64,000 nucleotides of DNA from Streptomyces sp. NBC_00536. Lineage in GTDB: Bacteria; Actinomycetota; Actinomycetes; Streptomycetales; Streptomycetaceae. Made by a program: the position numbers and the translations under genes. Of the stretch, positions 2,390-5,190 are shown piece by piece. The notes beneath the pieces were generated by a model, which worked only from the letters and a program-made list of their open reading frames with translations, was not told where the DNA came from and did no database searches. The first letter of the stretch is position 1. Each line of letters begins with the position of its first letter. The stretch lies in contig NZ_CP107819.1 of NCBI RefSeq assembly GCF_036346295.1, forward strand, positions 2,108,001-2,172,000. The letters are read 5' to 3'.

Positions 2390-2605
2390 ACGGCCTGGTC
2401 GGCGCTGGCCCGCCGAATACGGCTGCTGGTCGCGGCCGCCATCACCTACAACGCCATCGAGGCAATCGTCGCGATCACCGCCGGGACGATCACCTCCTCC
2501 ACCGCGCTGATCGGTTTCGGCCTGGACTCGGTCATCGAGGTGTCCTCGGCCGCCGCGGTCGCGTGGCATGCGCTCCGGGCACTCGCCCCGCCGGACACGG
2601 CCTAG
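2390..2605 (+). pseudogene. Cation diffusion facilitator, N-terminal fragment
   Basis: The frame encodes ARRIRLLVAAAITYNAIEA, then VAITAGTITSSTALIGFGLDSVIEVSSAAAVAW in consecutive stretches. This is the first part of a CDF-type cation efflux protein (transmembrane helices 1-2 with the conserved GFGLDS motif). The frame stops at TAG 2603-2605, about 70 residues in, whereas intact CDF proteins run to about 200-320 residues. No convincing start codon with a ribosome site precedes it, although the frame is open back to 2174. Its stop overlaps the stop of the convergent kinase-MFS gene inside CCTAGG. A 3'-deleted pseudogene is the best explanation. Confidence 0.65.
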
Positions 2606-5190
2606 GCCTGGTCGGTGGGCCTGGTCGTGATCAGGAGGGCGGCCAGGAGGGCTGCGAGCAGGGTGGCGCCGCAGGACCACCAGAGGGTGGTGGCGTAGCC
2701 GTGCTGCAGTTCCCGGGCGAGCTGTGAGGGCAGCACGGACGCGGCGCGCGCGCCGGTCACGCGGGACGCGATCGTGGTGCTGAGCACGGCCGCACCGATC
2801 GACCCGCCGAGTTGCTGGGCGGCTGTGATGACTCCCGAGGCGCCTCCGGAGTGCTGTACGGCGGTACCGGTCGTGACGGCGAGGAGCGAGGGGACGGCCA
2901 GGCCGGAGCCGAGGCCGGCGATGAGGCTGCCGGACAGGGCCAGCGTCATGTAGCCGCTGTCGATCGCGAGACCGGCCAGCAGCGCCAGGCCGAGGGCCGT
3001 GAGCACCAGGCCCGCCACGATCAGGACGCGCGGCGCCGCACGGCGCATCAGCCGGGGGGTGATCAGGGTGGCGGTGAGGGCGGTCGCCGCGACCATGGGC
3101 AGCAGGTTCAGCCCGGCGTCGAGCGGGGAGGCGCCGTGGACGAATTGCAGGTAGAAGGTCATGGCCGCGAGGAAGGTGAAGAGGCCGACACCGCCCAGAG
3201 CCATGGCGAGGAAGGCGCCGACGCGGTTGCGGTCCACCGGGAGCACCGGGTGGGACGTGCTGCTCTGCCACCAGGCGAAGGCCACGAGCAGCAGGACGCC
3301 GCCGCCGAACTGGAGCAGGAGCAGCGGGGTGAGGGACCAGCCGCTCGGCTGGGCGCCGACCAGGCCGAAGGTCAGGGCGGTCAGGCCCGCGGAGCCGAGG
3401 ACGGCGCCGACCGGGTCGGGGCGGGCCCCGGTGGTGCCCGGGCGGTCGTGCACCAGGGTGAGCACGCCGACCAGGGCGATCACGGCGAGGACGACGCCGG
3501 AGTAGAAGGTCCAGCGCCAGCTCATGCTCTCGACGAGCCAGCCGCTCGTGCACAGGCCGAGGACCGAACCGCTGCCGACGACCGTGGCGTACACGCCGAA
3601 GGCCCGGCCGCGTTCCTTCGGGTCGGTGAAGCCGCCGGCCACCAGGGACAGTGCGGAGGCGGACAGCAGCGCGCCGAAGACGCCCTGCAGGGCACGGGCC
3701 CACTCCAGCGTGCCCACGTCACCGGCCGCGCCGCCGAGGGCGCAGGCCGCCGCGAAGCCGACGACACCGGCGATCAGCATCCGCTTGCGGCCCACCAGGT
3801 CGGCGAGGTGGCCGCCGAGCAGCAGCAGCGCGCCGAAGGCGAGGGCGTAGGCGTTGCCCATTCCGCTCAGGTCCTTGGCGGCCAGGTGCAGTTGGACCTG
3901 GAGGGTGGGGAGGATGATGCCGAGGCCCGACACCTGGAGCAGCACCATCAGCTGGGCCAGGGCGATGACGGCCAGGCCCCACCAGCGCCGGGGGTGCGGG
4001 GGTCCCGGCTCCTGGAGGGAGCCCGGGGAGGCGGTGGCGGACCAGGCGCCGGGGACCGGGCCCGGCGGCGGGCCGAAGCCCTGCCCGGGGATCAGCGGCG
4101 AGGGGGCCGTGGGGGCGTAGGCGGGCGGCGGGGGCAGCGGGGGCGCGTACGGCTGGGCCGACGCGACGCGGGGGTCGGGCCGCGCGGCGGGCGCTTCGGC
4201 CACGGCTCCGGCGGGCGCTTCTCCCACGGCTGCGGCGGGCGCGAAGTCCAGCAGTTCGGCGGCGTGCCGCCCGAGCTGGGCCAGGACCGCGCCGGGCAGC
4301 CATTCCCCGGCCTGGTCGGTCGCCGTGCGCGCGGCCACCTCCTCGGGGGTGGGCCGCTGGGCGGGGTCCTTGTGCAGGCAGGAGCGGACGAGCTCGACGA
4401 GCGACTCCGGTACGCCGGTCAGGTCGGCCTCCTCCTCCGCGATCCGGAAGAGGTGGGCGTTCAGCCCGGTGCCGGTCGCGCCGAAGAGCAGCCGCCCGGT
4501 GGACGCGTAGACGAGGACGGCGCCCAGGCAGAAGACATCGCTGGCGGGGGTGAGTTCGAGGCCGCGGACCTGTTCCGGCGACATGAAGCCCGGGGATCCG
4601 ATCAGCATGCCGGTGTGGGTGTGCAGGCTGTCCCCGGCCAGGCTGTCCATCGCCCGCGCGATCCCGAAGTCGATGACGCGCGGGGCGTCGACGGTGACGA
4701 GGACGTTGGAGGGCTTGAGGTCCCGGTGGATCAGACCGGCGTCGTGCACGGCGCGCAGGGCGAGGGCGAGCCGGTTGGCGAGGGTGCGGACCGAGTGCTC
4801 GGGCAGTGGGCCGAAGTCCTGGGCGACCACGGTCTGCAGGTCGGGGCCCGGGATGTACTGGGTCGCCACCCACGGGATGGCGGCCTCGGGGTCGGCGTCG
4901 AGCACGGCCGCCGTCCAGCTGCCGCCCACCCGCCGCGCGGCGGCCACTTCGCGCGCGAAGCGCTTGCGGAATTCGGGGTTCCCGGCGAACTCGGCCTGCA
5001 CCACCTTCACGGCCACGGTGCGTCCGCCCTCGGAGCGGCCCAGATAGACCAGGCCCATGCCGCCCGCGCCCAGTCGGGCGATCAGGCGGTAGGGCCCTAT
5101 ACGGGTCGGGTCTTCGGCGATCAGCTGGTCCACGGGAGAAAGATAGTCCAACTCTCCAACGGGACAAGGCCCGTCCGGTGATTGACGCAC
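2602..5190 (-). CDS. Ser/Thr protein kinase - MFS transporter fusion
   Basis: One uninterrupted 862-codon frame joins two complete modules. Residues about 30-290 are a PknB-type kinase with the glycine loop RLGAGGMGLVYLG, VAVK lysine 62, catalytic loop HRDLKPSN (Asp157), DFG (Asp174), and GSPGFMSPEQ in place of APE. A proline- and alanine-rich linker (about 300-398) follows. Residues about 400-862 are a DHA2-like MFS transporter with many hydrophobic helices and the cytoplasmic motif ADLVGRKR. The TM1 acidic motif typical of DHA2 exporters is replaced by LQVSGLGIILP. GTG 5190 is the longest start; GTG 5133, just before DQLIAEDPTRIGPYRL, fits kinase family length better. It lies 58-115 bases downstream of pyruvate kinase on the same strand. 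Substrate unknown; a kinase tethered to its transporter is inferred. Confidence 0.85.
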   Translation of the reverse strand: MRQSPDGPCPVGELDYLSPVDQLIAEDPTRIGPYRLIARLGAGGMGLVYLGRSEGGRTVAVKVVQAEFAGNPEFRKRFAREVAAARRVGGSWTAAVLDADPEAAIPWVATQYIPGPDLQTVVAQDFGPLPEHSVRTLANRLALALRAVHDAGLIHRDLKPSNVLVTVDAPRVIDFGIARAMDSLAGDSLHTHTGMLIGSPGFMSPEQVRGLELTPASDVFCLGAVLVYASTGRLLFGATGTGLNAHLFRIAEEEADLTGVPESLVELVRSCLHKDPAQRPTPEEVAARTATDQAGEWLPGAVLAQLGRHAAELLDFAPAAAVGEAPAGAVAEAPAARPDPRVASAQPYAPPLPPPPAYAPTAPSPLIPGQGFGPPPGPVPGAWSATASPGSLQEPGPPHPRRWWGLAVIALAQLMVLLQVSGLGIILPTLQVQLHLAAKDLSGMGNAYALAFGALLLLGGHLADLVGRKRMLIAGVVGFAAACALGGAAGDVGTLEWARALQGVFGALLSASALSLVAGGFTDPKERGRAFGVYATVVGSGSVLGLCTSGWLVESMSWRWTFYSGVVLAVIALVGVLTLVHDRPGTTGARPDPVGAVLGSAGLTALTFGLVGAQPSGWSLTPLLLLQFGGGVLLLVAFAWWQSSTSHPVLPVDRNRVGAFLAMALGGVGLFTFLAAMTFYLQFVHGASPLDAGLNLLPMVAATALTATLITPRLMRRAAPRVLIVAGLVLTALGLALLAGLAIDSGYMTLALSGSLIAGLGSGLAVPSLLAVTTGTAVQHSGGASGVITAAQQLGGSIGAAVLSTTIASRVTGARAASVLPSQLARELQHGYATTLWWSCGATLLAALLAALLITTRPTDQA

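Follow-up and report, generated by a model that had tools for sequence, protein, structure and literature searches.

A Streptomyces-centred family of AfsK-like Ser/Thr kinases fused to an MFS carrier that possibly acts as a ligand sensor, with one clade cut to about nine helices

To our knowledge, the signals of most Ser/Thr kinases in Streptomyces coelicolor are unknown. The species is credited with 44 such kinases in the passage of PMC3924187 that counts them. AfsK, a Ser/Thr kinase of Streptomyces secondary metabolism, carries PQQ repeats at its C-terminus, according to the portion of PMC1262709 dealing with it, and excerpts of the same survey ascribe to another S. coelicolor Ser/Thr kinase (gi 21223285) a transport-derived extracellular solute-binding domain. 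Sensor kinases of the CbrA type, in which transporter and kinase are one polypeptide, are described in sections of PMC7096432 and PMC7918813: CbrA binds histidine and also transports it, the autokinase appears to be modulated by the SLC5 domain, and none of the activities is significantly affected by transported histidine (sections of PMC7096432). A family whose name implies a kinase-MFS fusion, Sensor Kinase-MFS (TCDB 2.A.1.34), has one member in the excerpt of Table 7 of PMC3924187, apparently in the S. coelicolor column. In the open-access literature we found no title, abstract or passage describing a Ser/Thr kinase-MFS fusion, and the terms 'MFS' and 'facilitator' had 0 occurrences in the main texts of the prokaryotic kinase surveys PMC1262709 and PMC2877116. 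NCBI does use the label 'bifunctional serine/threonine protein kinase/MFS transporter', which is an annotation name only; the open-access search found no study of proteins so named.

The window, a stretch of 64,000 nucleotides from Streptomyces sp. NBC_00536, contains a gene of this type on its minus strand. One frame runs from 5190 to 2602 over 862 codons, beginning with a GTG and containing no internal stop. The GTG at 5133 is the probable start, because the database copy of the protein (P0001) is 843 residues long, which places the gene at 2602..5133; residue numbers throughout refer to the 862-residue frame. Pfam recognizes Pkinase at residues 34-286 with 127 bits (cut-off 31.7) and MFS_1 at residues 409-800 with 141 bits (cut-off 33.4), in line with the preliminary description, which had proposed a complete kinase and a complete MFS transporter in one frame joined by a Pro/Ala-rich linker. 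The window frame is confirmed as a true fusion of a Ser/Thr kinase, a Pro/Ala-rich linker and a DHA2-type MFS domain, with both halves complete. A pyruvate kinase gene lies upstream on the same strand. At its other end the fusion gene is convergent with a 143-aa plus-strand ORF (2174-2605), the two sharing the palindrome CTAG at 2602-2605, in which TAG is the stop of each; a Pfam search with this ORF gave no match.

The kinase half (residues 34-286; 4333..5091, minus strand) is AfsK-like, and its catalytic residues are intact: GAGGMG at 41-46, Lys62, the catalytic loop HRDLKPSN at 155-162 (4705..4728, minus strand) and DFG at 174-176, the same elements that had been read from the window before. 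The Gly loop, Lys, HRD and DFG are kept in all 120 best protein matches, one of which (P0001) is the window's own, and simple patterns for these four elements hold in 37/37 fusion loci, L004 being read across its stop. With all catalytic residues present, the domain is predicted to be an active Ser/Thr kinase. The earlier label 'PknB-type' is loose, since the best NCBIfam match of the domain is AfsK, with 289 bits (288.8) against 168 for PASTA kinases. The AfsK profile NF053615 is matched over positions 1-319 of 809 only, and 288.8 bits is below its cut-off of 1300. A PADLOC search, run without curated cut-offs, matched 32 families (25 shown) on kinase and linker, including the PD-T4-6 kinase; such matches are generic, as any kinase of this sort would give.

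A linker rich in Pro, Ala and Gly (residues 320-400; 3991..4233, minus strand; 25 Pro, 18 Ala and 9 Gly in 81 residues) leads into a DHA2-type MFS domain (residues 402-853; 2632..3987, minus strand). AlphaFold2, run with 61 sequences, predicted 14 helices in the MFS part, with pLDDT values of 79-96 in most ten-residue blocks; the kinase part of the model was poor (pLDDT below 60 in most blocks) and was left unused. Foldseek returned EfpA as the first match of the MFS model (target TM-score 0.87) and QacA as the next different protein (0.80). The window scores 152.2 bits against TIGR00711 (DHA2), below the cut-off of 230.2. As regards DHA2 membership, the 14-helix MFS fold and motif A are present and the Asp of the first transmembrane helix (TM1) is absent.

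A full-length protein search matched 4181 proteins, with 7990 candidates scored, and the details given here come from the best 120 of the 4181. All 120, including P0001, carry both Pkinase and MFS_1, and several (e.g. P0028 and P0041) bear the NCBI name cited above. The five nearest relatives are 72-77% identical across 97-98% of the query, and chance joining is excluded because conservation runs the full length in relatives. In a scan of one genome per species, at least 583 stretches matched and 547 were confirmed, of which the best 80 were taken as 79 loci. The fusion is present in 37 of these 79 best loci; the others comprise one kinase-OpuAC gene (L035), one standalone MFS gene (L078) and 40 loci in which no MFS match accompanies the listed kinase frames, contig ends truncating some of them. 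Streptomyces accounts for 75 of the 79 by record titles, and the fusion also occurs in records of Streptacidiphilus (L007), Kitasatospora (L036) and Microtetraspora (L033), as well as in a protein named from Peterkaempfera (P0089). Three genomes have two different copies each: ISL-43 (L004, L021), ADI95-17 (L005, L016) and sk2.1 (L011, L017). These counts supply the conservation across species that the preliminary description had named as a check, do not support its impression that such fusions are few, and contradict the possibility that the homologues are always two separate genes. Two of the 37 fusion loci are disrupted, one by a stop inside the kinase (L004:8034-10586) and the other by a frame change in the second MFS half (L031:7476-10121), which is present downstream in another frame. 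A further locus, L038:7674-12067, has a tandem pair of related kinases, 72-74% identical to that of the window, in which Pfam recognizes nothing beyond the kinase domain.

A separate search for standalone pumps gave 3286 matches, and of the best 120 of these, 117 are pumps 46-50% identical to the window MFS. The remaining three, P0121, P0149 and P0160, resemble fusions: annotated as MFS proteins starting at TM1, they are placed among the fusions at three tree positions, as expected of fusions that are broken or have a misassigned start, or of genuine fissions. The standalone matches belong mostly to one close clade (mean identity 0.886), so representatives of less than 75% identity were compared, namely 50 full fusions (window included), 33 fusions with half an MFS domain and 18 standalone pumps; the pumps consist of one member of the closest clade, L078 and 16 from plasmid records, so that diverse controls are few. 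In the MFS tree, covering about residues 409-687, one branch (SH-aLRT 98) has the 18 standalone pumps on one side and the 83 fusion representatives with the three fusion-like proteins on the other. In the kinase tree (74 rows), a branch with SH-aLRT 94 (not starred) divides 22 other kinases from the fusions and L035. Both are quick searches with branch support by SH-aLRT only. Neither tree supports the idea that one kinase captured different MFS pumps several times independently. A test for domain swapping by recombination found 9 of 120 fusions in which, over the MFS part, the partner nearest in the kinase trailed the partner nearest in the MFS by more than 10 points.

The two halves have changed to very different extents, with mean pairwise identities of 0.889 for the kinase, 0.560 for the MFS part and 0.532 for the linker (1500 random pairs from 121 fusions, counting both the window and its database copy). 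We favour the reading of a receptor-like, AfsK-like kinase that has recruited the MFS part as a sensor or input domain over that of a self-regulated pump, at a confidence just short of an even balance. The protein would be a membrane-bound Ser/Thr kinase whose C-terminal, DHA2-derived MFS part serves as a transceptor-like sensory domain. A ligand that binds the MFS bundle, or a switch in the state of that bundle, would act across the flexible linker to alter the kinase on the cytoplasmic side, which in turn would phosphorylate both itself and proteins further down the pathway. This reading is favoured because the kinase is kept (0.89) while the MFS part is free to vary (0.56), the DHA2 signature is eroded, a clade with half the MFS domain exists and L035 has OpuAC in place of MFS. 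We infer sensing, coupling across the linker, the loss of proton-coupled export in the window subclade and any target of the kinase. Counting against an input domain, for 41 of the 83 sites fixed in at least 17/18 standalone pumps, 90% or more of the 50 fusions retain the residue. The fast change of the MFS part could also be plain relaxation. Inner and outer helix halves gave values of 0.96 and 1.43 in the fusions versus 1.38 and 1.24 in the 18 diverse standalone pumps, and the comparison was dropped as proof of sensing: the faster change of the outer halves is no evidence for it, because the closest standalone clade shares it proportionally (0.245 inner versus 0.335 outer, n = 117), with a ratio like that of the fusions.

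The rival that survives best is a working transporter regulated in cis, whose fused kinase phosphorylates the cytoplasmic loops of its own MFS part, or the linker, and so gates transport; we regard this as unlikely, though far from negligible. It draws on the completeness of both domains, on the 14 helices with EfpA and QacA as best fold matches, and on the residues that full-length fusions have kept. The segment GGHLADLVGRKR (residues 459-470; 3781..3816, minus strand), which we take to be the MFS motif A, retains its Asp464 in 50/50 full-length representatives, the window included (25/33 in the half-MFS group and 17/18 in standalone pumps), so the fold still looks constrained. A strict regular expression for motif A is false in five half-MFS loci and in L040. 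Column 419 in TM1 is the sole membrane-core column that is acidic in at least 17/18 standalone pumps, and it is still acidic in 26/50 full-length representatives, because of which some of the fusions may, on sequence grounds, function as transporters.

Set against regulation in cis is the state of the same residue in the window, where TM1 reads LLQVSGLGIILP, compared with LDATIVNIALP in the closest standalone relatives. The codon of Gln419 (3934..3936, minus strand) occupies what we take to be the site of the 'TM1 Asp motif' of DHA2, and the absence of Asp from the first helix, reported from the window alone, is upheld by the alignment of representatives, in which Asp419 is found in 17/18 standalone pumps, 17/50 full fusions and 32/33 half-MFS proteins. 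The window shares its Gln419 with all five of its nearest relatives; over all rows, the 130 full fusions have D in 37, E in 35 and Q in 38, the 54 half-MFS proteins D in 52 and E in 2, and the standalone search D in 119/120 (the best 120 of 3286). Losing the TM1 carboxylate is expected to impair proton coupling in DHA2 pumps. Other positions have been eroded as well: Asn424 in TM1 is kept in 18/18 standalone pumps, 18/50 full fusions and 13/33 half-MFS proteins; Pro511 in 18/18, 34/50 and 0/33; and Asn565 in 17/18, 6/50 and 0/33, respectively. Altogether, 19 of the 83 standalone-fixed sites are kept in fewer than 60% of the 50 fusions, and the window differs at 20 of the 83.

The half-MFS clade weighs further against a pump controlled by its own kinase, since it retains the kinase without a complete transporter. 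Five loci (L014, the gene lying at L014:7899-10007, L019, L020, L021 and L033) end after the equivalent of the ninth helix, and the next 1500 bases downstream contain no second MFS half in any of the five. In a search with L014, 54 of the best 120 matches, its own protein included (P0241-P0294), are half-MFS proteins of 608-673 aa, which stop at a nearly identical place, usually after a final hydrophobic stretch. Draft assembly does not account for this, because some of them (P0242, P0255, P0269 and P0274) sit on contigs longer than 7 Mb. Their MFS parts form one clade with SH-aLRT 100 (33 representatives), supported less well in the kinase tree (72, 15 rows). The model of P0242, of low confidence overall (mean pLDDT 57.9), contains about nine helices long enough to span the membrane. 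A nine-helix protein should by itself be an incomplete MFS carrier, so that in this clade the kinase persists without a complete one. The erosion of the DHA2 signature together with this sister clade weakens the suggestion of the preliminary description that fusion puts transport under direct phosphorylation control, and its alternative, a coupling of substrate flux to signalling, fits better if taken to include a ligand; the fusion itself, both halves and the catalytic site stand as described.

A second rival, to which we assign a slightly lower probability again, is that the MFS part is a mere membrane anchor under relaxed selection, from which the kinase receives no signal. Uncorrected Nei-Gojobori dN/dS is high in the N part of the MFS domain (median 0.79 against 0.15 in the kinase; 325 pairs from 25 fusion loci and the window), although these values are inflated in high-G+C DNA, so that the contrast alone was used. 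The persistence of half-MFS forms can be taken in the same sense, as can a still shorter plasmid copy from Streptomyces sp. NBC_00212 (L081:5001-6689; 562 aa), which comprises the kinase and about the first six MFS helices and matches residues 1-587 of the 843-aa protein. Genomic context can be read in the same way: with ORFs overlapping the fusion set aside, nothing in the first 13 kb of the window had a match in the sequences flanking 38 loci (thresholds E 1e-25 and 100 bits), so no window neighbour recurs beside these copies to indicate a substrate, and no conserved operon partner was found among them. The most widely shared flank sets are one ORF in five loci (L003, L005, L011, L025 and L036) and other kinases in five loci. 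Against an anchor, Gly459, Gly467 and Gly503 are fixed in 50/50 full fusions and 33/33 half-MFS proteins, the motif A Asp is invariant in the full-length set, and one helix would suffice, yet about nine or fourteen are kept. The TM1 residue is Asp or Glu in 33/33 half-MFS proteins, which argues against a neutral remnant.

The last alternative, a sequencing or gene-calling artefact joining two adjacent genes, has next to no probability: P0121, P0149 and P0160 are indeed annotated as if the MFS part were separate, but they sit among the fusions in the tree, and independent genomes rule out both an artefact and a one-genome fusion.

Returning to the sensor or input-domain reading, a kinase joined to a carrier would give a direct handle on signals, because the input probably enters through the membrane half, whose relatives bind small molecules. 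In the half-MFS clade nature has in effect carried out a deletion experiment that tells 'carrier' and 'receptor' apart, and whether the membrane part transports, senses or anchors thereby becomes testable in laboratory Streptomyces. Full-length members would have lost much of the standalone pump signature, and the half-MFS clade would have kept the acidic TM1 residue and the kinase. We put forward, tentatively and with the balance tilting somewhat against it, a Streptomyces-centred family of receptor Ser/Thr kinases whose ligand sensor is a converted MFS carrier, cut in one clade to about nine helices. The half-MFS kinase clade (54 proteins) and the OpuAC variant locus are new in this analysis.

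Among the systems with which the window protein can be compared, the NCBI 'bifunctional' proteins share its architecture and are of similar length, and it is a protein of that kind. The Sensor Kinase-MFS family of TCDB is likened to it by name alone. AfsK is the best NCBIfam match for the kinase, far below the cut-off, and differs in what follows, as the window protein has no PQQ match in Pfam and ends in MFS_1 instead. EfpA, QacA and the TIGR00711 pumps resemble its C-terminal half in fold and sequence, whereas the window falls below the TIGR00711 cut-off and has lost the TM1 Asp and other standalone-fixed residues. The S. coelicolor kinase gi 21223285 has a plan similar to that of L035:8001-10061 (Streptomyces sp. 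CBMA152), in which a kinase 80% identical to the window's is followed by an apparent membrane segment and OpuAC, a glycine-betaine binding domain (226 bits, cut-off 21.2). That kinase carries a binding protein, whereas the window kinase is joined to a polytopic carrier, and the support from OpuAC for the input-domain reading is limited to this single locus, which has a long branch in the kinase tree. CbrA likewise has its transporter domain covalently joined to a kinase, but combines a histidine kinase with an N-terminal transporter of the SSS/SLC5 fold, whereas the window combines Pkinase with MFS_1; by analogy, this precedent would support neither a pure sensor nor a pure transporter reading. 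If the input-domain reading is true, the family would stand beside transceptors and CbrA as their equivalent among Ser/Thr kinases, and its half-carriers would serve as receptors.
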